In this document: positions 20,826 through 61,364 of the stretch, piece by piece
How positions within the stretch are numbered: the first letter of the stretch is position 1
Layout: every line of letters starts with the position of its first letter
Source of the DNA: Desulfovibrio sp. JC010
GTDB lineage: Bacteria > Desulfobacterota > Desulfovibrionia > Desulfovibrionales > Desulfovibrionaceae
Reading direction: 5' to 3'
Length of the DNA stretch: 64,000 bases
Assembly: GCF_010470675.1 (NCBI RefSeq)
Contig: NZ_VOIQ01000006.1
Location: 61,331-125,330 of the forward strand
Notes under the pieces: generated by a model
Database searches by the model: none
Told to the model about the DNA's origin: nothing
The model's input: the letters and a program-made list of their open reading frames with translations, nothing else
Translations under genes and position numbers: made by a program

Positions 20826-20903
20826 CTACTAGGGATTCCAAAGGAAATTATCCCCTTTGGCCGCCGGAGGCGAAATCCGTCCGACAAAAGCGCGTAGCGC
20901 ATC
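20826..20903 (+). repeat. Second-type intergenic repeat, copy E
   Basis: Contains GCCGCCGGAGGC (20860-20871), an AAAGG/CCTTT tract upstream and GCGCGTAGCGCATC at the end. It is the reverse complement of a copy at 50201: shared blocks are GATGCGCT-CGCGCTTTTG, TTTCGCCTCCGGCGG, CAAAGGGGATAAT and CCCTA. Directly follows the pseG stop. Confidence 0.8.
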
Positions 20904-20926
20904 ATAATCTTCTTGGAGCATAAATT

Positions 20927-21841: not shown

Positions 21842-21846
21842 AATAT

Positions 21847-22596: not shown

Positions 22597-22605
22597 GGAG
22601 AACAA

Positions 22606-24365: not shown

Positions 24366-24374
24366 CGGGGCACA

Positions 24375-25907: not shown

Positions 25908-25920
25908 ACAAGGACAGCTG

Positions 25921-27126: not shown

Positions 27127-27128
27127 GA

Positions 27129-27276
27129 GATGCCTCCGGCGGCCCTGCCGGGGGCCTTAAACCCTTTTGGGAAAAGGGTTTGTTCCACTGTCGTTATCTC
27201 TAAGACTCGCGGAAGACCGCTTGCCTAAGAGCTAATGCAAGAATCCCAAAACTTTTTAGTTTGGCTTCGCCGTTTC
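27129..27276 (+). repeat. Stop-codon-adjacent intergenic repeat, copy D (long form)
   Basis: Begins GATGCCTCCGGCGGCC shortly after the stop of the upstream gene, continues with a GGCCCTGCCGGGGGCC hairpin and AAACCCTTTT / AAAAGGGTTT hairpin (27159-27181), and ends with AAAACTTTTTAGTTTGGCTTCGCCG. Between the hairpin and the end lie about 60 bases absent from copies A-C. Confidence 0.8.
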
Positions 27277-27307
27277 ATATGGCTAACCGTCAAAAGCTAA
27301 ATAACTT

Positions 27308-28537: not shown

Positions 28538-28542
28538 TTGAT

Positions 28543-45172: not shown

Positions 45173-46048
45173 TTGAGCTGCAACAATCGTTTATCTCCCC
45201 TCTTTATAGCCGAGGTATCCAGCAACCATGATTGCGATCTCGGCCGCTGTTACAAATTCATCGATACCGCCGCGCGCATAGGCTGCGGAGCGGTAAAATT
45301 CCAGCTGTTCAGGATAGACGAACTCTTTGCCCCGGAAATTCTGGAGCGCAGCGAAGACCACCGCAACCGGGTTCGCTGGGAGCTGCCGGAATCATTCATC
45401 CAGCCCATTGCCGAACGCTGCAGAAAACAGAACGTACTCTTCGGATGCACCCCGTTTTACCTTGATGCAGTTAAAATTCTGGCCCCGCAGGTGGACTTTT
45501 TCAAAATAGCCTCTTACGAACTGCTCTGGACCGAACTGCTTGAATCCTGCGCTGCCAGCGGCAAGCCTGTAGTGCTTTCCACCGGAATGGCCGATATGAA
45601 TGAGATAGGGGCGGCTGTGGAGACCCTGCGCAAGGCAGGCTGCGCAGACCTGACCCTGCTGCACTGCGTATCCGGCTATCCGGCCCCGGTGGAGCAGGCC
45701 AATCTCGCGGCCATAGAAACCATGCGCAGGGAATTCAAATGCAAAATAGGCTGGTCTGATCATACTGTAAGCGAAGGTGTGGTCCAGCGGGCAGTGCATA
45801 AATACGATGCCCAGACAGTTGAACTGCATCTCGATCTGGACGAAAACGGGCCGGAATACGATTTCGGGCATTGCTGGCTGCCGCACCAGCTGGAAAGAAT
45901 GATCGCCAATACCCGGCTGGGCGTGAACGCCGACGGCAACGGAATCAAAGCCCCTACGGAGGCAGAACTGCCGGACCGGGAATGGCGGGCAGATCCGAAG
46001 GACGGATTAAGACCCTTAAAATCAACAAGAAACACATGGAAGCCTTAA
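45173..46048 (+). CDS. NeuB/PseI-family synthase lacking the C-terminal SAF domain
   Basis: A 291-residue PEP-condensing TIM barrel: FIAEVSSNHDCDLGRCYKFIDTAA, VKFQLFRIDELF, FFKIASYELLW, VVLSTGMADMNEI, LLHCVSGYPAP and IGWSDHTVSEGV all match NeuB/PseI/LegI. It stops about 50-60 residues short of those enzymes and has no antifreeze-like (SAF) domain, which in NeuB helps form the active site across the dimer. The usual EKHFTLD-type segment reads ELHLDLDENGPEYDF. It should still bind PEP and a sugar but may use a different acceptor. TTG start at 45173 because TGA blocks upstream extension. First gene of a 13-gene operon. Confidence 0.82.
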   Translation: MSCNNRLSPLFIAEVSSNHDCDLGRCYKFIDTAARIGCGAVKFQLFRIDELFAPEILERSEDHRNRVRWELPESFIQPIAERCRKQNVLFGCTPFYLDAVKILAPQVDFFKIASYELLWTELLESCAASGKPVVLSTGMADMNEIGAAVETLRKAGCADLTLLHCVSGYPAPVEQANLAAIETMRREFKCKIGWSDHTVSEGVVQRAVHKYDAQTVELHLDLDENGPEYDFGHCWLPHQLERMIANTRLGVNADGNGIKAPTEAELPDREWRADPKDGLRPLKSTRNTWKP

Positions 46049-46052
46049 GTAA

Positions 46053-47582
46053 ATGGCCAGTGCCGACGGTAAAATAAAAACTATTTCTGAACTTGCAGAA
46101 ATCTCTGAAAAGTTGCGTGAAAGCGGCAAACGGATCGTACTCTGCCACGGCGTGTTCGACCTGCTGCATATCGGGCATATCCGCTATTTCAATCAGGCCA
46201 AGGAGCACGGCGATGTGCTCATGGTTACCCTGACCCCTGATCATTACGTAGACAAAGGCCCGGACCGCCCGGCCTTCACTGAAATCCTGCGTGCCGAAGC
46301 TCTGGCTTCACTGGGCGAGACCGACTATGTAGCCATCAACGAATGGGCCACTGCCGAGGAGACTTTGCGGGCCATCCGTCCCCATGTCTACGCCAAGGGC
46401 GACGAATTCAAAGACATCGACAACGACCCGCTGGGCAAGATCGGTAAGGAAGCTGATGTGGTCCGTGAGATCGAGGCTGAACTGGTCTTCACTTCGGACA
46501 TTGTCTACAGCTCCTCCAACCTGATCAACCGCTACCTGAACCGCAACAGCGAAGAATTGGACGAATACCTGAAGATGTTTCGCAAACGCTACCAGTTGGA
46601 CGACCTGCTCGATCATCTGGATCGCATGCAGGACCTGAAAGTTCTGGTCGTCGGCGACACCATCCTTGATGAATACCAGATCGCTTCCACTCTCGGAAAA
46701 TCCTCCAAGGACCCAATTCTGGCCCTCAAGTACCAGTCCCGTGAACTTTACGCCGGGGGCGCACTGGCCGTGGCCAACCATGTGGCCAATTTTGCAGGGG
46801 AAGTGACCCTGCTTACCATGCTCGGTGAACACGAGCGGTACGAAGATTTCATCCGTGAAAAACTGGACCCGAAAATCAAACCACATTTTTTCACCCGTCC
46901 CAAGGGGCCGACCACTCTCAAACGCAGATTCATTGACAGCTATTCATTGAACAAGGTCATGGAAATCTACGTCATGGATGACAGCCCGCTGCCGGAGAGT
47001 CTGGAACAGGATATCTGCGCCGGACTGGACGAAATTATTTCCGAGTACGACATGGTATTGACTGCGGATTTCGGGCACGGATTGATCAGCCCTGCGCTGG
47101 TGGAACTGCTGACAGAAAAGGCCCCCTATCTTGCGGTGAATACACAGGCCAATGCCGGGAACCGCGGTTTCAACACCATCGGCAAATATCCGCGCATGGA
47201 CTTTTTCTCGCTGGCCGAACACGAACTGCGTCTTGAAACCCGCGACCAGCTCAATGAACTGCGCCCCCTGCTTATCGAGACCGGAAACCGTCTGAAAGCA
47301 AACATTTGTCTGGTCACCCAAGGCAGCCGGGGCTGTTCGCTGTACAATCCGGCCAGCGAATTTGTGCGTATCCCCTCCTTCCAGTCCAATGTTGTGGACC
47401 GGGTCGGTGCCGGGGACGCGCTTTTCTCCATTGCGGCCATGTCCGCCTGCATGGGGCTGCATGAAGAACTGGTCGGTTTTCTGGGCAATATTGCCGGATC
47501 ACTGGCCGTGCAGATCATGGGCAATGACCGGGCAATCGACAAACAATCCATGCGTAAATACATAACCGCGACCATGAAATAA
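46053..47582 (+). CDS. Bifunctional nucleotidyltransferase/PfkB kinase with HldE domains in swapped order
   Basis: A 509-residue protein. Residues about 25-165 form a cytidylyltransferase-fold domain (GVFDLLHIGHIRYFNQAKEHGD with the HIGH motif). Residues about 190-500 form a PfkB sugar kinase (VVGDTILDEYQIA; AGGALAVANHVA; DRVGAGDALFSIAA with the catalytic Asp). HldE of E. coli has the kinase first and the adenylyltransferase second; here the order is reversed. It probably phosphorylates and nucleotidylates a heptose-like sugar made by the SIS isomerase encoded 1 kb downstream. Four bases after the previous stop, with weak ribosome site, so coupling is likely. Confidence 0.87.
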   Translation: MASADGKIKTISELAEISEKLRESGKRIVLCHGVFDLLHIGHIRYFNQAKEHGDVLMVTLTPDHYVDKGPDRPAFTEILRAEALASLGETDYVAINEWATAEETLRAIRPHVYAKGDEFKDIDNDPLGKIGKEADVVREIEAELVFTSDIVYSSSNLINRYLNRNSEELDEYLKMFRKRYQLDDLLDHLDRMQDLKVLVVGDTILDEYQIASTLGKSSKDPILALKYQSRELYAGGALAVANHVANFAGEVTLLTMLGEHERYEDFIREKLDPKIKPHFFTRPKGPTTLKRRFIDSYSLNKVMEIYVMDDSPLPESLEQDICAGLDEIISEYDMVLTADFGHGLISPALVELLTEKAPYLAVNTQANAGNRGFNTIGKYPRMDFFSLAEHELRLETRDQLNELRPLLIETGNRLKANICLVTQGSRGCSLYNPASEFVRIPSFQSNVVDRVGAGDALFSIAAMSACMGLHEELVGFLGNIAGSLAVQIMGNDRAIDKQSMRKYITATMK

Positions 47583-47583
47583 T

Positions 47584-48561
47584 ATGAGCAGCAGATACCG
47601 CCAATTCGACCGCAGCAGACTTCAACTGCGCCCCATAGCAGAACGGGAGAGCCTGCTTGATACCGGGATTATTAAAACCCCGGAACCTTGCACAGAGATT
47701 CATCCGTCCCTTGAAATTATCGCCGAAGAGCTCGCTTTGGCACGGGATAAAGGCAAGGCACGCATACTCATGATCGGGGCGCACGTAATCCGCTCCGGGG
47801 TACAACGCTACCTTTTCGAACTCATGGAAACGGGGTTGATCAGCTGCATCGCGGTCAACGGGGCCTGCGCCATCCACGACTTTGAATTCGCGCTCTGCGG
47901 GCAGACCACCGAATCAGTGGCAAAATACATTTCCAGTGGACAATTCGGCCTCTGGCAGGAAACCGGACTGCTCAACGATATCATTTCTCAAGGCAATGCA
48001 CAGGGGCTGGGTTTCGGAGAAGCCGTAGGCAGATATATCTGCGAACAGAAACTTCCCCATGCAGAGGCCAGCCTTTTCGCCAAGGGATATGAACTTGGTA
48101 TCCCGGTGACCGTGCATGCCGGAATCGGTTATGATATCATCCATGAGCACCCGAACTGCAACGGAGCAGCCATCGGCGAGGCCAGCTACCGCGATTTCCT
48201 GATCTTCTGCGACCGGATGGAAGAGCTTGAGCAGGGGGTGGTCATGAATTTCGGCAGTGCGATCATGGCACCGGAAATCTATCTCAAAGCGTTAGCCATG
48301 GTCCGCAATGCCTCTTCCAATCCGATCTGCGATTTCACCACCCTCGTCTGCGACCTGCACGATCTGCCGGAAGACATCAACTGCGAAGCCCCGAAAAACG
48401 ACGCCCGCTACTATTTCAGGCCGTGGAAAACCATGCTGGCCCGCACTGTTGCCGACGGCGGCAGGAGCTTTTATGTGCGGGGATTTCACGAACAGACCAT
48501 CCCCCAACTCTGGACCGCAGCCGTAAAACTTCAAGCACGGGATAAAAACCTTGTGGAATAA
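47584..48561 (+). CDS. Deoxyhypusine-synthase-like NAD-binding protein
   Basis: A 325-residue protein that I place tentatively in the deoxyhypusine/homospermidine synthase fold: MIGAHVIRSGVQRYLFELMETGLISCIAVNGACAIHDFE resembles the NAD-binding stretch of those enzymes, and VTVHAGIGYDIIHEHPN and NFGSAIMAPEIYLKAL occupy comparable places. The region expected to hold the catalytic Lys of deoxyhypusine synthase is not recognisable. Bacteria lack eIF5A, so a different substrate is implied, possibly a sugar or amine in the glycan pathway. Starts two bases after the previous stop; overlaps the next gene by 11 bases. Confidence 0.55.
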   Translation: MSSRYRQFDRSRLQLRPIAERESLLDTGIIKTPEPCTEIHPSLEIIAEELALARDKGKARILMIGAHVIRSGVQRYLFELMETGLISCIAVNGACAIHDFEFALCGQTTESVAKYISSGQFGLWQETGLLNDIISQGNAQGLGFGEAVGRYICEQKLPHAEASLFAKGYELGIPVTVHAGIGYDIIHEHPNCNGAAIGEASYRDFLIFCDRMEELEQGVVMNFGSAIMAPEIYLKALAMVRNASSNPICDFTTLVCDLHDLPEDINCEAPKNDARYYFRPWKTMLARTVADGGRSFYVRGFHEQTIPQLWTAAVKLQARDKNLVE

Positions 48562-49117
48562 ACACACCCAGAATTTACAAACCTGTCTCAGTTCCATCGA
48601 AGTCAGCGGCAACGACTGCTGTCCCGACGGTTGCGATGAAGCTTTTTCCGTCTGGAAGGGAATGACCGAAGAGCTGCGCAAGCAGGGGAAAATCATCTAC
48701 CTCATCGGCAACGGGGCCAGTGCCTCCATGGCCAGCCATTTTTCCGCCGACCTTGCCAAAAATGCCCACGTTCACACTCAGGTTTTCACTGATCTGGCCC
48801 TGATCACCGCCCTTGCCAACGACATTTCATATGATCAGGTCTTTGTTGAGCCGCTCAAACGCAGACTGACCGCGGACGATATGCTGGTAGCCATCAGCAG
48901 TTCCGGCAACTCACCGAACGTTGTAAATGCCTGCAGCCTTGCCGCTGACACCGGAGCCTCGGTAATCACCCTGAGTGCCATGTCCGCGGAAAACAAGCTG
49001 CGTTCCATGGGCGACATAAATTTCTGGCTGCCCGCTGAAACCTACGGCATGGCTGAAACCGGGCATGCCTGCATCCTGCACTACTGGATGGATTCAGTGT
49101 CCTTTCCCCCTGCATAA
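48551..49117 (+). CDS. SIS-domain phosphosugar isomerase (GmhA-like)
   Basis: A 188-residue protein with the SIS fold: LIGNGASASMASHFSADLAKN near 55 and VAISSSGNSPNVVNACSLA near 118 are the phosphosugar-binding loops of sedoheptulose-7-phosphate isomerase GmhA. GmhA makes D-glycero-D-manno-heptose 7-phosphate from sedoheptulose 7-phosphate; sedoheptulose 7-phosphate is also a transketolase product. TTG start at 48551 inside the previous gene; this start is weakly supported. The neighbouring kinase/nucleotidyltransferase fits a heptose route. Confidence 0.8.
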   Translation: MWNKHTQNLQTCLSSIEVSGNDCCPDGCDEAFSVWKGMTEELRKQGKIIYLIGNGASASMASHFSADLAKNAHVHTQVFTDLALITALANDISYDQVFVEPLKRRLTADDMLVAISSSGNSPNVVNACSLAADTGASVITLSAMSAENKLRSMGDINFWLPAETYGMAETGHACILHYWMDSVSFPPA

Positions 49118-49126
49118 GGAACATGT

Positions 49127-50197
49127 ATGAGCGATAATTTACGCATTGATTCCCACAAACTGCACCTGCACCCGGAGCGGGTGGCCCACTGGCTGGCTGG
49201 TGAAAATATCTATCCGCTGTACATGGAACTGAGTCCCGCCGGATCCTGCAACCACCGCTGCAAATTCTGCGGGCTGGACTTTGCCGGATACAAGCCCGAT
49301 TTTCTGGACACGGAAATCATGACTGAAAGGCTTGCCGAAATGGGGAAGCTGGGAGTCAAAAGCATCATGTATGCCGGGGAAGGTGAACCCCTGCTCCACA
49401 AGGACATGGCCCGGATTATCCAAACCACCAAAGCCAGCGGCATTGACACGGCACTGACCAGTAATGCAGTGCTGCTTAACGGGAAAACCGCAGCCGAAAT
49501 CCTGCCCTGCACCAGTTGGATTAAAGTCAGCCTGAATGCCGGAACCCCGGGAACCTATGGCCACATCCACGGCACGCAAGAAGAAGATTTCCAGCGTGTG
49601 CTCAAGAATCTGGAAAACGCCGCCGACATCCGTGAAAAACAGAACTCCGGCTGTACACTCGGCGTGCAACTGGTACTGCTGCCTGAAAATGAAGATGAAG
49701 TGGAGAACCTTGCCGGACTGGCCCGCGATGCGGGCATGGATTATCTGGTGGTCAAGCCCTACTCACATCACCCGCAATCCATCTGTACTGAATACAAAGA
49801 CATAAACTATACGGACTGCAGTGAACTTGAAGAGCGGCTGCAAAGCTACAAGACGGACAGCTTCAACGTGATTTTCCGCAGCGCAACCATGAAAATATGG
49901 GACGGACAGAAACGCGACTACAAGTGCTGTAATGCCTTGCCGTTCTGGTCATACATTGATGCAAAAGGAAATGTATGGGGGTGCAGCATCTACCTCAATG
50001 AAGATAATTTCCTATACGGAAATATTCATGAAAGCAGTTTTGAAGAAATCTGGACCGGACCAAAGCGGACAGCTTCGCTCAAATGGTGTGCTGAAAATCT
50101 TGACCCCACCACCTGCCGCGTAAACTGCCGCATGGATAAGATCAACGCCTATCTCTGGGAGCTTAAGAATCCCGGTGATCATGTAAATTTTATTTAA
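49127..50197 (+). CDS. Radical SAM protein with SPASM-type C-terminal region, 1
   Basis: A 356-residue protein. The [4Fe-4S]/SAM motif CNHRCKFCGLDF lies near residue 41, followed by AGEGEPLLHKDM (GGE-like motif). The C-terminal part has cysteines near GYIDAKGNVWGCSIYL and in DPTTCRVNCRMDK, consistent with an auxiliary cluster of SPASM or twitch type. Such enzymes catalyse radical oxidations, epimerisations or C-C/C-S bond formation. In this operon a sugar substrate is likelier than a peptide since no precursor peptide gene is seen. AAGGA ribosome site. Confidence 0.83.
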   Translation: MSDNLRIDSHKLHLHPERVAHWLAGENIYPLYMELSPAGSCNHRCKFCGLDFAGYKPDFLDTEIMTERLAEMGKLGVKSIMYAGEGEPLLHKDMARIIQTTKASGIDTALTSNAVLLNGKTAAEILPCTSWIKVSLNAGTPGTYGHIHGTQEEDFQRVLKNLENAADIREKQNSGCTLGVQLVLLPENEDEVENLAGLARDAGMDYLVVKPYSHHPQSICTEYKDINYTDCSELEERLQSYKTDSFNVIFRSATMKIWDGQKRDYKCCNALPFWSYIDAKGNVWGCSIYLNEDNFLYGNIHESSFEEIWTGPKRTASLKWCAENLDPTTCRVNCRMDKINAYLWELKNPGDHVNFI

Positions 50198-50200
50198 GGC

Positions 50201-50282
50201 AGGGAGTTGATGCGCTTCGCGCTTTTGATATTTAATTTCGCCTCCGGCGGGCAAAGGGGATAATCCCCTCTGCACTCCCTAA
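50201..50282 (+). repeat. Second-type intergenic repeat, copy F
   Basis: Bounded by the inverted repeat AGGGAGT (50201-50207) and ACTCCCT (50274-50280). Inside are the GCGC-TTC-GCGC stem, TTTCGCCTCCGGCGGG and a perfect AGGGGA-TAA-TCCCCT hairpin. Homologous in reverse orientation to copy E. Interrupts the 45-59 kb operon between the first radical SAM gene and the HAD gene, three bases after a stop. Confidence 0.82.
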
Positions 50283-50296
50283 TAGGGGTTTGGGTT

Positions 50297-50923
50297 ATGC
50301 TAATCGGAATTGACCTTGATAATACAATTATCTGTTATGACAATTCGTTGCATGGAATTGCCGTGGAACGTGGTTTGATTTCCAGTGATCTGCCGAAGGA
50401 GAAACGGGTAATCCGTGATCAGATCCGCGCCGTCCACGACGATATTGAATGGCAGAAATTACAGATAGCTATTTACGGCACCCACATGGAGCAGGCGGAA
50501 TTGATGCCGGGAGCCCGGGATTTTCTGCTGCAACTGAAAAACCAGGGGATTAAATTCCAGATTGTCAGCCACAAGACCCGCTACCCTAATTACGGGGACA
50601 GCAAAGTTGATCTGCACGTAGCGGCAAGAGCCTTTTTAAAACGCCACAATTTTTTCTCGGAATCAGGGCTGGGGTTAAATGAAAATGACGTCTTTTTTCT
50701 GCCCACACGGTCAAAAAAGATAAAGACTATCCGCCAGCTGAAACACAATATTTTCATCGATGACCTGAAAGAACTTTATCTCGAAGCAGATTTTCCGCAA
50801 CAGGTCACCAAGATACTTTTTTCCTCAGAGCAGGAAGTGGAGATTCCCGGTGTGATCGTCCTGCCTGACTTCACCAAAATCAGCGAATTTGTATTCAAGG
50901 GGATTGCGGATGGCAGATTCTGA
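50297..50923 (+). CDS. HAD-superfamily hydrolase-like protein
   Basis: A 208-residue HAD protein. Motif I is DLDNTI at residues 6-11 with both Asp, motif II is the SHKTR Ser near 96, and the late FIDDLKELY supplies the acidic motif IV. A 45-residue cap sits between motifs I and II. It could be the phosphatase that removes a phosphate between kinase and nucleotidyltransfer steps, as GmhB does, but it is not a GmhB sequence. Overlaps the next gene by 14 bases. Confidence 0.78.
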   Translation: MLIGIDLDNTIICYDNSLHGIAVERGLISSDLPKEKRVIRDQIRAVHDDIEWQKLQIAIYGTHMEQAELMPGARDFLLQLKNQGIKFQIVSHKTRYPNYGDSKVDLHVAARAFLKRHNFFSESGLGLNENDVFFLPTRSKKIKTIRQLKHNIFIDDLKELYLEADFPQQVTKILFSSEQEVEIPGVIVLPDFTKISEFVFKGIADGRF

Positions 50924-51941
50924 TCCCGGAGAGCTGGTCCGCTCCCTGAGCGGAGAACTTCCGGTTAAGGTTGCCCCCATCCGAGCCGGACGAAACAGCC
51001 GGGTCTTTCGCGTTGATTGCGAATCGGGCAAATCCCTGCTGGCTAAATTCTACCTTCAGCCCACTGCGGACGGACGCAGCAGGTTGAAACAGGAATGGGA
51101 CGCTATCATATTCATGACCGGGTCCGGCATGGGCAAGATTCCTTCTCCTCTGGGATTTGATGAATCCCTTCAGGGCGCAATATTTTCTTTTATTCCCGGA
51201 CCCCCTGTTGAAAACGGGACAGATCAGGACGTCCGGGAAATAGTCTCATTTCTCGCCAGCCTGAAAGATATTTCCATGCTCCCGGAAGCGACCCAGATAC
51301 CCCGTGCAGCCGAAGCCTGCTTTTCGCCTGCGGAACTGGTTGATAATATCAAAAATAGACTAGCGCGACTGCAAGCTCTGCCCGCAGAAAACCGAATCTA
51401 CAAGCGTATGCATTCATTTCTGGATGATAGGTTTTTTCCGGAATTTGATAGGTGCATCGGCATTGCAAAGCAACATTTCCCCGGAGAATTATGGCATGAG
51501 CAGCTGAAAAAAAATTTCAGAACGCTCAGCCCGTCAGATTTCGGTTTTCATAATGCGTTGCGAACTGAAAGCGGACTCGCTTTTGTTGATTTCGAATATT
51601 TCGGCTGGGATGATCCGGTTAAAGCTGCTGCGGACTTCCTGCTCCACCCGGCCATGGATTTGGGTGCGCAACAGATGGCTGTTTTCTTTGCGGGCATGAA
51701 AAACACCTTTAAATCTGATCAGAACTTCACCCGGCGTTTTAAAACCTACCTGCCCCTGTTCCGTTTGAAATGGTGTATGATCCTGCTTAACGAATTCATA
51801 AACCAGCACCTTGAACGCCGAGAATTTGCCCGTGGCAACGTCGGCAAACGTGAAGAGTTGCAGACGCAGCAACTTGAAAAAGCTGAAATTTTCCTTAATA
51901 AAGATTTACAGATACTAAGCGCATTAAATTTACAGAATTAA
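50910..51941 (+). CDS. Aminoglycoside-phosphotransferase-like kinase
   Basis: A 343-residue protein with an APH/choline-kinase-like fold. The N lobe contains AGRNSRVFRVDC and LLAKFYL with the ATP Lys. The catalytic loop reads LSPSDFGFHNAL near 210, with Asp and Asn conserved but Ser in place of the usual His, and the metal Asp lies in LAFVDFEYFGWDDP. Probably phosphorylates a sugar or small molecule. Start at ATG 50910, inside the HAD gene, rather than at 50889. HAD and kinase genes overlapping like this suggest opposing or consecutive phosphate steps. Confidence 0.75.
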   Translation: MADSDPGELVRSLSGELPVKVAPIRAGRNSRVFRVDCESGKSLLAKFYLQPTADGRSRLKQEWDAIIFMTGSGMGKIPSPLGFDESLQGAIFSFIPGPPVENGTDQDVREIVSFLASLKDISMLPEATQIPRAAEACFSPAELVDNIKNRLARLQALPAENRIYKRMHSFLDDRFFPEFDRCIGIAKQHFPGELWHEQLKKNFRTLSPSDFGFHNALRTESGLAFVDFEYFGWDDPVKAAADFLLHPAMDLGAQQMAVFFAGMKNTFKSDQNFTRRFKTYLPLFRLKWCMILLNEFINQHLERREFARGNVGKREELQTQQLEKAEIFLNKDLQILSALNLQN

Positions 51942-51958
51942 TATAGCGGAGAAATAAA

Positions 51959-52765
51959 TTGGACCAGCGTTCTAAGCAGCTCAGAAAAAAAATCGTGGAC
52001 GTGCTCCACCATGCCGGGCGGGGCCATGTCGGGCCGTCCATGTCTCTGGTGGAAATGTTGCGCGTTCTTTATGATTCGGTTTTAAAATATGATCCCGCCA
52101 ACCCGCTTCTGCCTGAGCGGGACCGCTTCATTCTCAGCAAGGGACACGGCTGTCTGGCCCTGTACGTGCTGCTGGCGGAAAAGGGATTCATCAGTGAAAA
52201 AGAGTTGTTCAGTTTCTGTTCCTTTGAAGGACTCGTAGGCGGGCATCCCACCACCAAAACTCCGGGAGTGGAGTTTGCCACCGGAAGCCTCGGACATGGT
52301 TTACCTTTTGCGGTGGGCGTTGCTGCTGCACTTAAAATCGACAATTCGGCAAGCCGTGTTTTTACTGTACTCGGCGACGGGGAATGCGGAGAAGGTTCAG
52401 TCTGGGAAGCAGCCATGAGCGCGGCCCGCCAAAAACTCTCCAACCTGACCGCCATTGTGGATTACAACAAGCTGCAATCCTACGGTCCCACTGAAGATAT
52501 CTCCGGACTGGAACCTTTTGCCGACAAATGGGAAGCTTTCGGATTTGCTGTACGTGAGGTTGACGGACACGATGTCCCGGAACTGAAAAATGCTTTCGCG
52601 GACCTTCCTTTTGAAAAAGACAAACCGTCAGTCATTATCTGTCATACCGTTAAGGGCAAGGGCATACCTGCCGCAGAAAACAATCCCACCTGGCACCACA
52701 AAACAAAGATGTCAGCAGAAGATCACGCCATGATTATTAAGGGCATCGAGGATTACCATGCGTAA
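51959..52765 (+). CDS. Transketolase-like N-terminal subunit, pair 2
   Basis: A 268-residue half-transketolase with AGRGHVGPSMSLVEM near 20, SKGHGCLALY near 60, GSLGHGLPFAVGVA near 108 and the thiamine diphosphate motif GDGECGEGSVWEA...VDYNKLQSYG. Compared with pair 1 it has GHVGPS in place of GHPGGS. TTG start after GCGGAG; 18 bases after the kinase gene. Overlaps its partner gene by eight bases. Second split transketolase in the window, clearly diverged from the first. Confidence 0.87.
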   Translation: MDQRSKQLRKKIVDVLHHAGRGHVGPSMSLVEMLRVLYDSVLKYDPANPLLPERDRFILSKGHGCLALYVLLAEKGFISEKELFSFCSFEGLVGGHPTTKTPGVEFATGSLGHGLPFAVGVAAALKIDNSASRVFTVLGDGECGEGSVWEAAMSAARQKLSNLTAIVDYNKLQSYGPTEDISGLEPFADKWEAFGFAVREVDGHDVPELKNAFADLPFEKDKPSVIICHTVKGKGIPAAENNPTWHHKTKMSAEDHAMIIKGIEDYHA

Positions 52766-53678
52766 AGCTTGTCTGGAACAGGTCTACCAACTGGCAAAAA
52801 AAGATGAACGGGTAGTTTTTATCGGCTCGGATCTCGGTGCGGGTACCCTCTCTCATTTTCAGGAAGAGATGCCGGAACGTTTCTTCATGGAAGGCATTGC
52901 CGAAGCACACGCTGTGGGCATGGGCTGCGGGCTGGCTCATGAGGGTAAGGTGGTCTACATTAATACCATCCAAAGTTTTCTGACCAGACGCTGCTATGAA
53001 CAGTTGCTGCTCGATGCCTGCCTGCACAACCTCAATGTGCGATTCATCGGAAACGGCGGAGGACTGGTTTACGCCCCGCTGGGGCCCACACACTGGGCCA
53101 CCGAAGATATTTCCATCCTGCGGGTCATCCCCAACCTGACCGTACTTTCCCCGGCAGATGCCAAGGAAATGAATCGGCTCATGCCGCACACCCTCGATCA
53201 TCAGGGACCGATTTTCATACGCCTTGCCAAAGGCTACGACCCCATTGTCACCGAAGAAAAATCTTTCGAATTCGGTAAGGCATACTCCTATCGCGAAGGC
53301 AAAGACGTGCTGCTCATGGGCTGCGGGGTCATGCTGGGAATTATGAAACAGGCTGGAGATCTGCTGGCCGCGCAAGGAATAGAAGCCTCAATACTGCATC
53401 TGCCGACCATCAAACCGCTGGACTCCGAAGCCATAGTCTCCAAAGCGCGGGAAACACGGGCGGTAATCACCGTAGAAGAAAACACCGTGCTCGGCGGACT
53501 CGGCAGCGCAGTGGCGGAAATCCTCGCTGAAGCCTGCCTGCCCAACCCGCTGCGCATGAAACGGATCGGGCTGCCGGATTCCTTCAGCGAAAACTACGGC
53601 TCTCAATTGCAGCACTTCGCCCATAACGGGCTGACCGCTGAAAATATTGTTGTAGAAACAAAAAAACTTTTAAAATAA
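52758..53678 (+). CDS. Transketolase-like C-terminal subunit, pair 2
   Basis: A 306-residue C-terminal half with EGIAEAHAVGMGCGLAHEGK near 47, where the catalytic Glu is kept but the following residue is Ala instead of the usual Gln, then ILRVIPNLTVLSPAD and VITVEENTVLGGLGSAVAEI. It must pair with the 51959 product. The altered motif and lack of the GPDG-type loop of pair 1 (here GNGGGLVYAPLGPTHWATED) suggest a different substrate. Confidence 0.87.
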   Translation: MRKACLEQVYQLAKKDERVVFIGSDLGAGTLSHFQEEMPERFFMEGIAEAHAVGMGCGLAHEGKVVYINTIQSFLTRRCYEQLLLDACLHNLNVRFIGNGGGLVYAPLGPTHWATEDISILRVIPNLTVLSPADAKEMNRLMPHTLDHQGPIFIRLAKGYDPIVTEEKSFEFGKAYSYREGKDVLLMGCGVMLGIMKQAGDLLAAQGIEASILHLPTIKPLDSEAIVSKARETRAVITVEENTVLGGLGSAVAEILAEACLPNPLRMKRIGLPDSFSENYGSQLQHFAHNGLTAENIVVETKKLLK

Positions 53679-53682
53679 AATT

Positions 53683-54342
53683 ATGGCAAAACAACTCAAC
53701 CTGATCACCCCGCTGCACACTTCCACCAACCGCGATTACTTGGAACGTATGAACGATTCCAAAGTGGAATGCATGCTCAAGGCCAAAGAATATGAATTTG
53801 ACTATTGGGACGGAGACCGCCGCTACGGCTATGGCGGCTACCGCTATATTGAAGGATACTGGACTCCGGTGGCAGAGGGGTTGATCGAGACATACGGCCT
53901 GCAAAAAGGTTCCCGCATTCTGGATGTTGGTTGCGGCAAAGCATTCCTGCTCTATGAACTGCATAAGCTGGGCATGGATGTGCACGGCTTTGATATTTCC
54001 AGACATGGACTGGCCGGGGCCAAAGATGAAATCCGGGACAAATTGTTCACCCACCGGGCCGAAGAACCGTATCCATATGCGGACGGGGAATTTGATCTGG
54101 TGATTTCCATCAACTCTCTGCACAATCTGCCCGTTTTTAATCTCAAAAAAGCACTTGGAGAAATGGAAAGGGTCGCGCAAAATAAATTTCTGTGCGTGGA
54201 AAGCTTCCGCAATGAGCAGGAATTATTCAACCTGCAATGCTGGGCCCTGACCTGCGAATCGTTTTTCAGTAAAGAAGAATGGACATGGATTTTTAAAAAT
54301 TTCAGCTACAGCGGCGATTACGAATTCATCTATTTTGAATAA
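53683..54342 (+). CDS. SAM-dependent methyltransferase
   Basis: A 219-residue class I methyltransferase with ILDVGCGKAFLLYEL near 79, DVHGFDISRHGL, FDLVISINSLHNLPVFNLKKAL near 143 and a Tyr/Asp-rich start with a YGYGGYRY segment. This family often acts on small molecules or sugars. Four bases after the transketolase gene and 12 before a radical SAM gene, so it belongs to the same pathway. Confidence 0.83.
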   Translation: MAKQLNLITPLHTSTNRDYLERMNDSKVECMLKAKEYEFDYWDGDRRYGYGGYRYIEGYWTPVAEGLIETYGLQKGSRILDVGCGKAFLLYELHKLGMDVHGFDISRHGLAGAKDEIRDKLFTHRAEEPYPYADGEFDLVISINSLHNLPVFNLKKALGEMERVAQNKFLCVESFRNEQELFNLQCWALTCESFFSKEEWTWIFKNFSYSGDYEFIYFE

Positions 54343-54354
54343 ACCGGAGACACA

Positions 54355-55422
54355 ATGCAGCTTTATACCAATCTGAAAATTTTCCACTATCAGGACAAGC
54401 TCGATTCCCTGCCCCGCGAAGCAGACCGGGTTGAAGCTCCCATCCACATCCGCATAAAACCCACCAACGGTTGCAACCACAGCTGTTCTTATTGTGCCTA
54501 CCGCAATCCGGAACTGCAGCTGGGGCAGGATATGTCCATTGCCGACCGCATCCCGACCCTGAAAATGAAAGAAATCGTAGCCGACTGTATTGATATGGGC
54601 GTAAAAGCGGTCACCTTCAGCGGCGGCGGAGAACCGCTCTGCTACCCGCAGCTGTCCGCAACCGCCCGTGACCTTGCCGAGGGCGGTGTCAGCATTGCCA
54701 CACTGACCAACGGCGGACTGCTCAGGGACGAAATTGCCGAAATATTTTCCTCCATGGGCACGTGGATAAGAATATCCATGGATGGCTGGGACGGCCCCAG
54801 CTATTCCCGGTTCCGCTCCGTGCCGGAAGATGAATTTTCCAAAGTCATGGACAATATTAAAAATTTTAAAAAGCTGAACGGAAAATGCTTTCTGGGCGTC
54901 AGCTATATCATCAACCGCGATAATGCCGACCATGTTTATGAAATGGGCAGTAAACTGAAAGATGCGGGGGTGGATAGCATTAAATTCTCTCCCTGCGTGG
55001 TCAGTAACGACGGACACGAGAATAATCGCTACCATGCTCCGGTATTCGGCAAAATCAAGGAACAGACCCAGCGGGCCAAGGAAGATCTGCATGATAAAGA
55101 GTGTGAAATTTTTGATGCCTACCACGAACTGGATGAAAAATTCGGCAAACCGTACACATGGTGCCCCAACCTCCAGATTCAGCCGGTTATCGGTGCTGAC
55201 CAGCGGGTCTACACCTGCCACGATAAAGCCTACAACCTTGATTCCGGAGTGCTGGGTTCCATAGCCGAGCAGAGCTTCAAAGATTTCTGGCAGGGCAACC
55301 CGGATAAATTCTACAAAATCAATCCCGGCCGGGACTGCAAACACCATTGTGTAGCCAACCGGACCAACAAACTCATCCACGAATACCTCAACGTCAACCC
55401 CGACCACCTGCCTTTTGTCTAG
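54355..55422 (+). CDS. Radical SAM protein with SPASM-type C-terminal region, 2
   Basis: A 355-residue radical SAM enzyme. CNHSCSYCAYR near residue 39 binds the SAM cluster, TFSGGGEPLCYP near 82 is the glycine-rich SAM-binding motif, and C-terminal cysteines in TWCPNLQ, YTCHDKAYN and DCKHHCVANR suggest one or two auxiliary clusters. It differs in sequence from the first radical SAM protein at 49127. Probably performs a radical step on the sugar or its nucleotide. Good GGAG site. Confidence 0.83.
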   Translation: MQLYTNLKIFHYQDKLDSLPREADRVEAPIHIRIKPTNGCNHSCSYCAYRNPELQLGQDMSIADRIPTLKMKEIVADCIDMGVKAVTFSGGGEPLCYPQLSATARDLAEGGVSIATLTNGGLLRDEIAEIFSSMGTWIRISMDGWDGPSYSRFRSVPEDEFSKVMDNIKNFKKLNGKCFLGVSYIINRDNADHVYEMGSKLKDAGVDSIKFSPCVVSNDGHENNRYHAPVFGKIKEQTQRAKEDLHDKECEIFDAYHELDEKFGKPYTWCPNLQIQPVIGADQRVYTCHDKAYNLDSGVLGSIAEQSFKDFWQGNPDKFYKINPGRDCKHHCVANRTNKLIHEYLNVNPDHLPFV

Positions 55423-55436
55423 GAGTTTTTTTATAG

Positions 55437-57383
55437 ATGAAGATTCTGGTTATCGGAGACGGTTCGCTAGGCAATGCGATTGCCGGTCAAATCCGGCAAA
55501 ACGGGCATGAAGTTATCCAGACTTCGCGCAAAAATCCGGTGCTTATCCATTTCGAACTAAAAGATGAACCAAAGTTCACCAATCTACCCAATGCTGACTG
55601 GGCAGTGATCGGAGCCGGAATTTCAGGTTACAGGGAGTGTGCAGATCATCCCGAATCCCGGACCATCAATGTGGACCGGACCATAGAACTATGCAAAGCA
55701 TTGCTCAAACGAGGAACTAAGATACTCTACCCCTCCAGTACCGCTGTTTTTGACGGGGAAAAAGCTATGCCCGCCCCGAAAGAGTCCACCTGCCCGGCTA
55801 CGGAGTATGGACGCCAGAAAACCGATGTGGAAAATTTCCTGCGCAAATTCCCCGGACAGACGGCCATTGTGCGGCTGACCAAACTTCTGGACCGCAAGAC
55901 CCCGCTCATCTCCGGCTGGCTGGATGACCTTGCCGCAGGGAATAAAATCACTCCCTTCAGCGACCTGAGCATAGCCCCGGTTCTTTTTGAAGACGCAGCA
56001 CTGGGGTGCTGCCGGATTATGGAAGCGGACGCAGACGGCATATTTCATTGTTCCGGCCCGCAGGAAATCAGCTATCTTGAATTCGGACGTAAACTGTGCT
56101 CACAGGCCGGATTCGACAACACACTGATTGAGCCTGCCAGTTGCATGAATTTTCTGAACTACTGCCCGAAACACTCTGCGCTGGAGACAGCAGAGACAGA
56201 AGAGCTGATCGGGTTTAAATTTCCCCATGCGCAGCAGGTAATTGAGGAACTGCTTTGCCGCCGCTGCCTGCTCTGTGGAAGCACTGAACTCCGTTTTTTT
56301 GAACAATACAATTCCTTTCCCGGCATAACTTCGGACTGCAAGCCGTGGCCGCGGGCAGGAGAATTCATGATCTGCAAGGAGTGCGGACACCCACAGAAGA
56401 AGCTTTCCCCCCAATGGTTCAAAGATATCAACGGCATTTATTCCGGATATGAAATGTATCCGCTGAGTGCCGGGAATGAGCCGCTGATCTTTGATGAGCA
56501 CGGTAAAGGCAGCCCCCGTAGCGGAATCCTGATGGACAAACTTATTTCAGCCCTGTCCTTGCCGGAGAAAGGCTCCGTGCTTGATGTGGGCTGCGGCAAC
56601 GGCTCCCTGCTGCAACAATTTCATATGCGCCGCCCCAAATGGAATCTCTATGGACACGAACAGTCGGAACAAAGAGAAGAAATACTTCATTTGCAGGGAG
56701 TACAAAGCTTCTACTCAGGTCCGCTGAAAAACATCGGGCAGAAATTTGATCTGATCACCATGACCTATGTGATCGAACATCTTGTTGATCCGGTCGACGT
56801 ACTCAAACAGCTTGGGGGGCTTTTACGCGAGGGCGGGCAGATAATGATCCATACCTCATCATTTGCGGACAACCCCTTTGATCTTATGGTCTGTGACCAC
56901 TGCTCCCACTTCACACCGGAAACACTGGAATTTATGGCTGCGCAGGCAGGACTGAAGATCACTGCGAAAACAGACCCATGGCTGACTAAAGAAATAGGAT
57001 TCACCGCCCGCAAATCAAATGGACGCCAAATCCGGCCGAAGCAGGGAACCGCAATACAAAGTCTGGCAGAAAAACTCCGCTGGCTTGACCAACTGGCCCG
57101 TAAAGCAGAGCAAATAAGTACTAAACAGGAAACAGGAATTTTCGGAACCGCTGTGGCCGGGACATGGCTGGGTGCGGTCCTCAAAGGCAATGTCTCATTT
57201 TTCGTTGACGAAGATCCGGGCAAACAGGGACAAAGACACATGGGGTTGCCCATTATAAGTCCGGCAGATATTCCGGCTGGGGCAGTAGTGGTAATGGGCT
57301 TTAATAAAAAACTGGGGACACACATCGCAAAGCGGATTCAGGCAGAACACCCTTTTATTGATTTTTTAATTTCAGATGAATAA
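55437..57383 (+). CDS. Fusion: RmlD-like NAD-dependent reductase plus zinc-type C-methyltransferase
   Basis: A 648-residue protein. Residues 1-265 form an extended SDR of RmlD type (VIGDGSLGNAIAGQI; YPSSTAVFDGEKAM; YGRQKTDVENFL with Tyr and Lys). From residue about 277 a cysteine-rich CRRCLLCG ... CKECGHPQ metal site, a methyltransferase (LDVGCGNGSLLQQF; MTYVIEHLVDP) and a C-terminal Rossmann-like domain (IFGTAVAGTWLGAVL; FFVDEDPGKQG) reproduce sugar C-methyltransferases such as TylC3/NovU. The two halves could together add a methyl branch and reduce the keto sugar. GGAG site, 14 bases after the previous stop. Confidence 0.83.
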   Translation: MKILVIGDGSLGNAIAGQIRQNGHEVIQTSRKNPVLIHFELKDEPKFTNLPNADWAVIGAGISGYRECADHPESRTINVDRTIELCKALLKRGTKILYPSSTAVFDGEKAMPAPKESTCPATEYGRQKTDVENFLRKFPGQTAIVRLTKLLDRKTPLISGWLDDLAAGNKITPFSDLSIAPVLFEDAALGCCRIMEADADGIFHCSGPQEISYLEFGRKLCSQAGFDNTLIEPASCMNFLNYCPKHSALETAETEELIGFKFPHAQQVIEELLCRRCLLCGSTELRFFEQYNSFPGITSDCKPWPRAGEFMICKECGHPQKKLSPQWFKDINGIYSGYEMYPLSAGNEPLIFDEHGKGSPRSGILMDKLISALSLPEKGSVLDVGCGNGSLLQQFHMRRPKWNLYGHEQSEQREEILHLQGVQSFYSGPLKNIGQKFDLITMTYVIEHLVDPVDVLKQLGGLLREGGQIMIHTSSFADNPFDLMVCDHCSHFTPETLEFMAAQAGLKITAKTDPWLTKEIGFTARKSNGRQIRPKQGTAIQSLAEKLRWLDQLARKAEQISTKQETGIFGTAVAGTWLGAVLKGNVSFFVDEDPGKQGQRHMGLPIISPADIPAGAVVVMGFNKKLGTHIAKRIQAEHPFIDFLISDE

Positions 57384-57404
57384 AAAGGATCTTACGGAGA
57401 TCAC

Positions 57405-58937
57405 ATGCACCACAATGAGAACGAATCCCTGAAGCAACAGGCTCTGCGGCAGGCATATGACAATGCGGACATGGACGTATTTCCATGCCATAGAACCGAA
57501 AAAAACGGACAGCAGAAAGCTCCCGGAAAAATTTATTTCCACACTGTAATTGTTGTATTCGGCAAAGAATTCACCTCCATGTTTGTGAATGACGTACTGC
57601 CTACCCAGCTGGGTGCCGGAAACATTGAATCATTAAATACCGAATCCCGCTCAACCTATATAATTTATACCACCCCGGAAGATCGTCCGGCCCTGGAAGA
57701 ATCCCCCGCTTATAAACAGCTGGCCCAGATCATGGATATCCGGCTCTATCTTGTTGACTGGCAAATAATAGAAAGCAAAAATAAATACAGATTCATGATT
57801 CTGGCCCATAAACACGCCATACGCAAAGCACATGAAGAGGGAGCAAGACTTGTAGTTCTCACCCCGGACGCGGTTTTCTCGGAGAACACATTCCACACCC
57901 TGTACCGCCGGGCAGCTGAAGGCTATACCGCTATCATGCTCGCAAGCGTGCGTGTTCTCAAAGAAGAGTTCCAGCCGCTCATGCGCCGGTTTTTTTTCAC
58001 TGCAAAGCGCATAGAAGCTCCCATCAAATCCAGAGAACTGGTCGATCTGGCTCTGGACCACCTGCATCCGGACACCCACAACGCCACTATGGGATCAGAA
58101 AAATCAAGCGGCTGGCCTTCGCAGATGTTCTGGTCAATTCCCGGCGAAGGTCTGCTGGCCCATAACTGCCATCTGCACCCGATCATGATTTATCCGGAGA
58201 CTCTAAGCGAGTTTGAGGGAACAATTGATGACGATTGTGTCTGCAAAATCTGCAAAGAAATCAGCAAGGTATACATTATCCAAGATTCCGATGAAATGGC
58301 CGTCTTCGACCTCAGTCCGCGCGATTCAAGGCTCCCTGAACGTCTTGAGCCTTTCAACATGGACTATATGGTCGGCTGGGTTGTTGACCATGCCGATGAA
58401 TTCCATCAGCAGTATGCAGACCATGAAATCAGAATCCATAACGGCAAATGCGGCCCGCTCTGGGATAAACTATCCAAAGAATCAGCTGAACTGGTAAAAG
58501 AAATCAAGGCCGCCGGACTCAGCGAGGAAGAACATTTCTTCCCCAAGGTGCTGCTGGATTACGACCTGCGTTTTCCTCCGCTCGGCATTGATTCTTCTTG
58601 TACCGCCAATGAAAAAAATCAGAATGCGCAGGCTCAGGGACCGGTTCCGGACAAAAAGAGTACACGTTTCTGCCTGCGTCCGTGGAATTCTCCATTGCTC
58701 ATGGAGAACGGGGATCTGCGTTCCTGCCATCTGCGCGATGAAATCATGGGCCGGGTGGATGAAGAAACCACACTCCGTAAAGCCATGCATACATCCCGCT
58801 TCACCGAGCTGCGCAGACAGCTGATCACCGGAGAAATAAACGATCCGGTCTGCAAAGACTGTCCGCTTGCCCCGATTACCAACCTGAGCGATCTAAAACG
58901 CACTGTGGCGGACATGATCCGGGCCAGCATGAAATAA
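57405..58937 (+). CDS. Glycosyltransferase-like domain fused to an orphan SPASM-like cysteine domain
   Basis: A 510-residue protein that I do not recognise as a whole. Residues about 40-290 look like a GT-A fold (YFHTVIVVFGKEFTSMFVNDVLP; EGARLVVLTPDAVFSENTF). The last 90 residues carry FCLRPWNSPLLMENGDLRSC and VCKDCPLAPI, the layout of a SPASM/radical-SAM C-terminal cluster domain, but the protein lacks any CXXXCXXC radical SAM motif. The cluster domain may bind iron-sulfur for structure or dock with the radical SAM partners in the operon. Last gene of the 45-59 kb operon. ACGGAG site. Confidence 0.6.
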   Translation: MHHNENESLKQQALRQAYDNADMDVFPCHRTEKNGQQKAPGKIYFHTVIVVFGKEFTSMFVNDVLPTQLGAGNIESLNTESRSTYIIYTTPEDRPALEESPAYKQLAQIMDIRLYLVDWQIIESKNKYRFMILAHKHAIRKAHEEGARLVVLTPDAVFSENTFHTLYRRAAEGYTAIMLASVRVLKEEFQPLMRRFFFTAKRIEAPIKSRELVDLALDHLHPDTHNATMGSEKSSGWPSQMFWSIPGEGLLAHNCHLHPIMIYPETLSEFEGTIDDDCVCKICKEISKVYIIQDSDEMAVFDLSPRDSRLPERLEPFNMDYMVGWVVDHADEFHQQYADHEIRIHNGKCGPLWDKLSKESAELVKEIKAAGLSEEEHFFPKVLLDYDLRFPPLGIDSSCTANEKNQNAQAQGPVPDKKSTRFCLRPWNSPLLMENGDLRSCHLRDEIMGRVDEETTLRKAMHTSRFTELRRQLITGEINDPVCKDCPLAPITNLSDLKRTVADMIRASMK

Positions 58938-58999: not shown

Positions 59000-60058
59000 C
59001 TACTTTAAAAGAGAATAAGCCAGATCTGCACACTCATCTGCTGTGTTGCGGTGCCAGAACAATTCTGCTCGCAATTTATCCTGCAAGCTAGAATCTATTT
59101 CAGAATCTAATATTTTTTTAAGAGCATCCTGTGTATTGGCATTGGGGATATAGTTTCTCCGAATCAAAATATTCATATCCTGCCAGTCACTGTCTCCTCC
59201 GGGAAGCATGGGGACTACTTTTTTTCCCAGCAAAAAAGCCCACACGAGCAAAGAACTGGACATGCCGAAAATTATATCTGCATCAAATATTAATTGATAG
59301 GGGTCTGCATTGATGTCCACAAGTTCAACCTGTGGATTCTCAAGGCAGCCTGTTTTCTCCAATGTGGAATGTCGGGGATGCTCTTTTACTTGAATTCGCG
59401 GGGTATTCTGCTCATTCCGGCTTGCCTTTATAACCATTGAGAAGGCCTCGACTTCGTTAAATCCTGTCCCGAGCGTGTCTCCATAAACAATAGAGAGAGG
59501 CTCAGAATAAAAAACCCAGGTTGTTTTTGTGAAGGAAGACGGCTTGTAAATCTTTTCTTTCAGATATTGAATAATCGGATGCCCTGTCACTGCGATGTTG
59601 CCAGATGGTATACCGTGGTGCACTAATTTATCCGCACACTTTTGATCCATAACAGAGATCATATCAGGGAGATATTCAAATCCTGATCCGTCTTTGCTTC
59701 GCACAAACCGTTCCGGCAAATGCATCCACGAATCAAGTACTGTCAAAACCGGAATTTTAAGGTTCCGGGCAGCTCTTTGCAGCCTGTAGTCCATTGAAGT
59801 CTCGAACTCTCCGAGAAGGCCTGAGATCAGCAGTGCAGGATCTTTTTCTTCGACAAGCCTGAAAGCATCCCTGTCATTTTCAAATGAACAAATTTCCGCA
59901 GGGCAATTAAGCAGTTCAAAGGTCCCCTTACTTAAGGCAGTACACACACAGGACAATCCATAGGCCCCGGTCCTTTTTATGCTCGCAGCAACAGGCGCAA
60001 GACAAGCTGCGCCCCCGGGAAAACCGGAACCTATAAGTATCTTTTTCCGGCTACTCAC
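59000..60058 (-). CDS. Putative GT-B-fold glycosyltransferase
   Basis: A 352-residue protein with a Gly-rich start (ILIGSGFPGGAACLAPVA) and a C-terminal half recalling CDP-glycerol/polysialyl-type GT-B enzymes: VKEHPRHSTLEK near 232, and DADIIFGMSSSLLVWAFLLGKKVVPMLPGG near 268 resembles donor-binding motifs of such transferases. No family can be named with certainty. Last gene of a minus operon starting with pseB beyond the right edge; overlaps the aminotransferase gene by eight bases. More AT-rich than the operon to its left. Confidence 0.6.
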   Translation of the reverse strand: MSSRKKILIGSGFPGGAACLAPVAASIKRTGAYGLSCVCTALSKGTFELLNCPAEICSFENDRDAFRLVEEKDPALLISGLLGEFETSMDYRLQRAARNLKIPVLTVLDSWMHLPERFVRSKDGSGFEYLPDMISVMDQKCADKLVHHGIPSGNIAVTGHPIIQYLKEKIYKPSSFTKTTWVFYSEPLSIVYGDTLGTGFNEVEAFSMVIKASRNEQNTPRIQVKEHPRHSTLEKTGCLENPQVELVDINADPYQLIFDADIIFGMSSSLLVWAFLLGKKVVPMLPGGDSDWQDMNILIRRNYIPNANTQDALKKILDSEIDSSLQDKLRAELFWHRNTADECADLAYSLLK

Positions 60059-61355: not shown

Positions 61356-61364
61356 AACTGCCAC

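Follow-up and report, generated by a model that had tools for sequence, protein, structure and literature searches.

In the GmhA-HldE-HldD pathway to ADP-heptose, the isomerase, kinase and nucleotidyltransferase belong to the same superfamilies as enzymes encoded by the thirteen-gene operon described here, which occupies positions 45173-58937 of a 64,000-nucleotide stretch of the Desulfovibrio sp. JC010 genome (the window). Two-subunit thiamine diphosphate (ThDP) enzymes of sugar pathways offer a second comparison, as AviB1/AviB2 and Pau11/Pau12 are presented in the accessible text of PMC4425429 as pyruvate dehydrogenase (PDH) E1-like enzymes of two-carbon branching. A 2025 review (PMC12247030) lists, in its accessible text, three of nine ThDP superfamilies with ketone acceptors (decarboxylases, alpha-keto acid dehydrogenases 2 and transketolases), and its section 2.3 presents ketone use by transketolases as a proposal, for hydroxyacetyl transfer in miharamycin and amipurimycin. 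Those two pathways share with the operon a transketolase split over two genes, found among sugar-modification genes together with an oxidoreductase.

The operon departs from each of these systems. Unlike GmhA-HldE-HldD, it has inverted domains in its nucleotidyltransferase-kinase (B), an altered metal site in its isomerase (D), a GSU2086-family protein (C), and extra ThDP and radical S-adenosylmethionine (SAM) genes. Unlike AviB1/AviB2 and Pau11/Pau12, as described in PMC4425429, it carries a transketolase pair (H and I) with two genes, F and G, that are not found in E1 loci. The likeness to miharamycin and amipurimycin is drawn from the description of their clusters, and the candidates given in the accessible text of PMC12247030 are all Streptomycetes, as against sulfate reducers, other phyla and a kinase-nucleotidyltransferase B here. 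The thirteen genes are a conserved unit, and we regard it as evenly balanced whether they would encode a dedicated pathway to one nucleotide-activated, carbon-branched surface sugar.

Conservation and co-occurrence of the operon genes

Thirteen + strand open reading frames, A to M, form the operon; its contig, C6, is one of the 64 in a 4.39 Mb assembly. Their intergenic spacing is, in order, 4, 1, -11, 9, 99, -35, 17, -8, 4, 12, 14 and 21 bases, the only wide gap being the 99 bases between E and F and all others falling between -35 and +21. With that single exception, the spacing bears out an earlier sequence-only reading, which had described thirteen same-strand genes mostly separated by 0-25 bases or overlapping. 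The families it had named were mostly assigned likewise by Pfam and NCBIfam, except for F (no match) and M (a sub-threshold SPASM match only). In a sequence scan, promoter- and terminator-like sites across the operon were no more frequent than expected by chance; with that scan at chance level, co-transcription of A to M is argued from spacing and conservation.

We used B (46053..47582; CTP_transf_like and PfkB matches) as the marker of the module, scanning 84,980 species, each represented by one genome, with a B-alignment profile and keeping the best 80 of 552 confirmed relatives. All counts out of 80 thus describe the loci nearest to the window's B, each reaching at most 10 kb either side of it, with many contigs shorter. 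All 80 relatives match over nearly the full length of B at 43 to 92% identity, the highest value being that of the bin Desulfovibrio sp. UBA2564; the B of Solidesulfovibrio carbinolicus is 73% identical. Nearly all of the records are metagenome bins, and their titles include Thermodesulfobacteriota, Magnetococcales, Verrucomicrobia, Planctomycetes, Chloroflexi, Omnitrophota, Acidobacteria, Elusimicrobia and Nitrospirae, two archaeal records and others.

The full thirteen-family set occurs in the same order in two genomes of the same genus (L064 and L066). Two further genomes of that genus (L067 and L068) have B to M in the stretch examined, with L as two genes, and in L065 H is only a fragment and E and I were not found in the stretch examined. 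Across the wider sample, B occurs together with F (50297..50923), G (50889..51941), H (51959..52765) and I (52758..53678) in 21 of 80 loci, whose bins bear the names of about seven phyla. Of the 52 loci that extend 9 kb or more beyond B on its downstream side, 15 have all of F, G, H, I and J (53683..54342). Among 395 genomes of the host phylum (thresholds E <= 1e-60 for B and E <= 1e-15 for F), B was found in 21 and F in 8; the two coincide in 6, on one contig each time (p = 2.8e-7). In seven of the eight F-bearing genomes F has G, H, I and J nearby; the contig of the eighth (G083) stops after G. In the two F genomes outside the six with both matches, F is likewise accompanied by G, H, I and J, and G190, one of these two, has D, E and a divergent B besides.

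The earlier reading had named beforehand a lack of co-occurrence elsewhere as the finding that would count against it; the genes do co-occur, which supports its proposal of a single pathway for an activated, modified sugar. A chance grouping of thirteen genes is excluded, as the gene set is conserved. Its remark that no pathway with this set had been described agrees with a literature search, with subscription journals mostly outside its scope, that found no description of the set.

A split transketolase alternates with an E1-like pair

H and I are the N-terminal subunit (Transketolase_N) and C-terminal subunit (Transket_pyr and Transketolase_C) of a split transketolase. Like the keto-sugar-branching split transketolases, it is encoded by two genes, and its sugar-modification cluster also holds a possible keto-forming oxidoreductase. 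Around B, a transketolase pair is present in 27 of 80 loci, a PDH-E1 alpha/beta-like pair in 13, both in 1 and neither in 41 (26, 13, 1 and 42 under a same-strand rule). The E1 name is based on one representative pair and on an annotated Azospirillum oryzae plasmid with the order SDR-SDR-B-SIS-SDR-E1alpha-E1beta-like-DegT-DegT (SDR, short-chain dehydrogenase/reductase). No E2 or E3 was found among ten annotated representatives of neighbour clusters present in six or more loci. We infer that the E1 pair belongs to the alpha-keto acid dehydrogenases 2 superfamily of PMC12247030, and it is to this variant of the B module that AviB1/AviB2 and Pau11/Pau12 correspond (PMC4425429, accessible text).

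The signature of I, VYAPLGPTH, sets this subunit apart. All 34 operon relatives carry a Leu within VYAPLG[PS]TH or some variant of this motif, and the same position in 22 readable transketolase or 1-deoxyxylulose-5-phosphate synthase (DXS) controls holds Asp in 19, Asn in 1 and the operon signature itself in 2 (L173, L175 and L180 were unreadable and left out). The usual Asp has a role in acceptor binding. The earlier suggestion that the transketolase makes a heptose is thus weakened by the Leu in I and by the replacement of the pair with a PDH-E1-like pair in other loci, as the latter would not be expected to make sedoheptulose 7-phosphate.

F and G follow the transketolase. F invariably has D6, D8, K141, D155 and D156 in 17 sequences, residues that we take to fit the haloacid dehalogenase (HAD) motifs, although it lacks any Pfam or NCBIfam match and its profile found no significant match among solved structures (best E 0.11). 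G is a kinase of the aminoglycoside phosphotransferase (APH)/choline-kinase fold with an APH family match, and a fold search matched many APH-type kinases and indicated no substrate. F and G form one polypeptide in six loci, from the genomes of 5 records with two of the loci in one bin. Both genes occur in 21 of 26 transketolase-only loci and in 0 of 12 E1-only loci (p = 2.3e-6; L110, which has both pairs, was left out), and in the 41 loci with neither ThDP pair F was found in 5 and G in 3. This restriction may arise because a hydroxyacetyl branch carries a hydroxyl that an acetyl branch lacks, in which case F and G would act on that hydroxyl, or else on the donor phosphate.

A radical-SAM enzyme in the place of an SDR

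E (49127..50197) is a radical-SAM enzyme that alternates with a GalE-like SDR (c1) in the module, defined as the region within 1.5 kb of the span from B to the transketolase. Of the 27 transketolase loci, 8 have E in the module, 18 have c1 and none has both; the one locus left, L091, has E some 1.7 kb beyond the span, within the same run of genes. Counting L091, the split is 9 to 18 and never both in the module (p = 2.1e-7, kinship uncorrected). All 13 E1 loci have c1. Frames could be read for 17 of the 18 in-span SDRs, of which 11 show YxxxK and 6 started too early to show it; no SDR frame was obtained in L147, and the copy in L117 has a dehydratase-like STPEVYG. The alternation in the 27 loci suggests that E probably performs the job of c1.

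Among solved structures the E profile lies nearest to DesII, followed by MoaA and cytosylglucuronate decarboxylase, with BtrN lower. Its CX3CX2C motif (C41, C45, C48) and C268, C286, C330 and C334 are invariant in 13 E sequences, the latter four forming one auxiliary-cluster set, and we take BtrN to have the same ligand set with one auxiliary cluster; a literature search for the BtrN precedent found nothing. E thus matches the sugar radical-SAM enzymes DesII, cytosylglucuronate decarboxylase and BtrN by profile, at low similarity, and it occupies the place that an SDR has in relatives. Taken together, the alternation, the presence of c1 in all E1 loci and these profile matches make it most likely that E oxidises or epimerises a sugar.

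In three loci (L072, L076 and L086), D-B-C is immediately preceded by a NeuB relative together with DegT and CMP-sugar-synthetase-like genes, a connection between the pathway and genes of the nonulosonate type.

B, C and D compared with the heptose route

The sequence-only reading had H and I making a C7 or C8 ketose phosphate that D would isomerise and B and F activate as an NDP-heptose or -octose, to be C-methylated and reduced without a two-carbon branch. D and B are indeed superfamily relatives of GmhA and HldE, as H and I are of transketolase; D and B both fall short of the curated cut-offs. B scores 145 bits against the HldE cut-off of 521 (NF008454) and has its nucleotidyltransferase domain first, the opposite of the kinase-then-nucleotidyltransferase order of HldE. 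D (48551..49117), a SIS isomerase, scores 68.8-68.9 bits against the GmhA cut-off of 209.45 (TIGR00441), a cut-off that is strict in the host phylum, where 9 of 60 genomes pass and the best copy mostly lies at 160-217 bits.

The metal site separates D further from GmhA, whose zinc ligands are H61, E65, Q175 and H183 in Neisseria gonorrhoeae numbering (PMC5387315, accessible text). The window's D has Asp67 and Glu169 at two of these four positions. Among 53 SIS rows from B loci, the first position holds Asp in 50, Glu in 2 and a gap in 1, and the second holds Glu in 51 and Gln in 2, the two deviating rows being extra canonical-type copies; all 19 SIS copies beside a canonical C have Glu and Gln. 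The idea that a transketolase and a GmhA-like step simply build a heptose loses support from the score and metal site of D. Two further points run against the heptose or octose route, as no D was seen in 11 of the 27 transketolase loci (some of them truncated) and sedoheptulose 7-phosphate does not require a private transketolase.

The family of C (47584..48561) counts in favour of that route. C scores 387 bits against the GSU2086 family cut-off of 250 (NF052581), and its model (mean pLDDT 91) matches the C-terminal part of AgrE/ArgZ (6lrf_B, Z 20.0 over 220 residues, root-mean-square deviation (rmsd) 3.4) and deoxyhypusine synthase (7cmc_A, Z 18.8 over 247 residues, rmsd 3.5), several of the matched entries being NAD complexes. 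The label deoxyhypusine-synthase-like thus holds at the level of fold, with AgrE as close or closer, and the counterpart in C of the catalytic lysine K329 of human deoxyhypusine synthase (from the title of 8a0f, K329A) may, by eye, be the invariant Glu231. The family occurs in 250 of 395 sampled genomes of the host phylum, 242 of them over the cut-off, and 19 of 20 stretches read place a C-family gene next to one of gmhA type. In Geobacter sulfurreducens GSU2085-2087 it lies between genes given the names hldE and gmhA, and the Tn-Seq (transposon sequencing) values given for the three in the accessible text of PMC5585712 are alike (GSU2085 hldE, -3.1; GSU2086, -3.2; GSU2087 gmhA, -3.7). The 20 stretches around such C genes, unlike the window's operon, show no F, G or H, with one distant match to the transketolase C-terminal part; C was tried and rejected as a marker of the pathway, since it occurs in 250 phylum genomes and since 19 of the 20 stretches pair it with a canonical-type gmhA but lack the remaining genes. 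Weighing the gene neighbourhoods and Tn-Seq values against the metal site of D and the exchange of H and I for an E1 pair, we consider the unbranched heptose or octose route rather unlikely.

The distribution of HldD offers a suggestion for C itself. With HldD called if over cut-off or at E <= 1e-70, and eight weak C matches counted as C-negative, HldD was found among gmhA-positive genomes in 4 of 29 C-positive versus 16 of 22 C-negative genomes in a hand-picked set of 60 and in 5 of 48 versus 9 of 21 in a random set of 80 (p = 0.007), or 9 of 77 versus 25 of 43 when pooled (p = 1.2e-7, kinship uncorrected). From this anticorrelation, the simplest reading, unproven as it is, would be that the GSU2086 family is an NAD epimerase standing in for HldD. 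A strict replacement is not clean, since 9 of the 77 C-positive gmhA genomes also have HldD and 18 of the 43 C-negative ones have neither.

Family resemblance of B and D might also suggest an ordinary ADP-heptose operon for the lipopolysaccharide inner core. The genome has a gmhA-type gene (C1:57555, 194 bits), an HldD over cut-off (C6:56690, 406 bits) and separate HldE-type kinase and nucleotidyltransferase matches on C4 and C17, all elsewhere, and B and D lie under the curated cut-offs; we judge this explanation highly improbable.

A scan of viral sequences with B gave 7 loci that matched by the nucleotidyltransferase domain alone and were set aside. A divergent B adjoins an extra stand-alone nucleotidyltransferase-domain copy in six host-phylum genomes (G040, G090, G260 (L166), G286, G298 (L167) and G358).

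Peripheral genes and genomic surroundings

A, K and L were found in 12, 9 and 10 of the 80 B loci, respectively (M was not scored), and may be additions to the core pathway. A (45173..46048; 291 aa) matches PF03102 only, the inferred product being a phosphoenolpyruvate (PEP)-dependent synthase; it has no SAF domain match and misses the curated NeuB and PseI cut-offs (183 vs 400 and 172 vs 340 bits). It aligns with SpsE 1vli over 8-266, and its KFQ, SDH and E.H stretches, to which we attribute catalytic roles in the barrel, align with 1vli and 6ncs. By this distribution A is peripheral to the module; the earlier reading had suggested that it may extend the sugar with PEP.

J has a match to a SAM methyltransferase family. 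K (54355..55422), the second radical-SAM enzyme, shares the Cys spacing of E and has two further invariant Cys, C178 and C214, in 9 sequences. L (55437..57383) fuses an RmlD-like SDR to a methyltransferase, both parts having family matches, and the latter shows by eye a zinc-finger-like stretch of the C-methyltransferase type. M (57405..58937) had been called a glycosyltransferase/SPASM hybrid; its SPASM part stands just under the cut-off (20.6 vs 21.5), and its glycosyltransferase part has no family match in Pfam or NCBIfam. It retains the first part and SPASM end of longer orthologues of 869-903 aa (L065 13294-15903, L066 13741-16452) and lacks their radical-SAM core (CNLSCVYC, PF04055). Long versions of M without the CX3CX2C motif were seen in L064 and L068.

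The operon seems to lie in a glycan island. At 19148-31502 a second operon has its own split transketolase, of the GPDGATHQ type, and a DegT/cytidylyltransferase operon lies at 59000-63068. Beyond the window, a 354-aa NeuB-like frame (L157 3663-4727), long enough for a SAF domain, has PseG-like, acetyltransferase-like, formyltransferase-like and deacetylase-like neighbours by eye. As to the carrier, none of the 8 flagellin-N matches in the genome falls in the window; the nearest on the contig, at C6:194550, is roughly 69 kb beyond its end. A rough motif search covering the window and 20 kb to each side gave no match.

On a Solidesulfovibrio carbinolicus plasmid, A-B-C-D-E stand together in a single run. 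A divergent operon (L193 5277-14994) closes with pseB, pseC, F, G, H and I, and its other genes match eight genes of the window's second operon. This arrangement links the two window operons, which would probably work together. It also bears on whether the operon is an island of separate modifying genes, with B-C-D serving one sugar, F-G-H-I-J another and A, K, L and M others, an explanation that the split on the plasmid and the 41 of 80 B loci with neither ThDP pair would favour. We hold it to be unlikely, as B, F, G, H and I occur together in 21 of 80 loci, E and c1 alternate in the module in 27 of 27 transketolase loci, gene spacing is near zero and the plasmid halves still lie within 20 kb of each other.

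Proposed pathway and implications

Returning to the branched-sugar pathway, we propose that D would interconvert a ketose phosphate and an aldose phosphate, with a substrate that is probably not sedoheptulose 7-phosphate, and that B would phosphorylate the product of D and make the nucleoside diphosphate (NDP)-sugar. C, likely an NAD enzyme by its fold, would invert or oxidise a centre, and a ketone or inverted centre would be set by the GalE-like SDR in most relatives and by E here. H/I could then transfer a two-carbon unit, hydroxyacetyl, onto the keto-sugar and so create a tertiary alcohol; in relatives with the E1 pair, acetyl from pyruvate would be added instead. F/G, not seen with the E1 pair, may act on the extra hydroxyl of the branch or on the donor phosphate, J, K and L may methylate, modify and reduce the sugar, and M or neighbouring transferases could attach it.

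Several observations weigh against this pathway. The exclusivity of transketolase and E1 pairs is weak when taken alone (p = 0.051), and in 41 of 80 loci the stretch covered contains neither pair. The E/c1 pattern was first noticed on these loci and then scored again on them by position, which makes the second count no independent test; the loci are related, with several near-duplicates, and looser clustering places c1-type SDRs upstream in L072, L076 and L086, next to DegT/NeuB genes and outside the B-transketolase span (in L086 about 7 kb away). The window's operon has no c1, and its keto step depends on the equivalence of E. K has the peptide maturase SkfB as its best solved match. According to the accessible text of PMC12247030, split transketolases are untested in vitro and the 13 candidates are all from Streptomycetes.

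Possible but doubtful is the wider reading of an undescribed two-carbon-branching route across several phyla, in which split transketolases outside Streptomyces would be combined with a radical-SAM enzyme in place of a GalE-like one and with GSU2086 as an NAD-dependent heptose epimerase replacing HldD. If true, the branching of sugars by split transketolases, which PMC12247030 presents as a proposal confined to antibiotics of Streptomyces, would extend to the surface glycans of many environmental bacteria. Radical-SAM E and SDR c1 would then be a natural pair that may carry out one step by two chemistries, and a testable function would be suggested for the GSU2086 family, whose Geobacter Tn-Seq phenotype, in the values available, resembles that of heptose genes.

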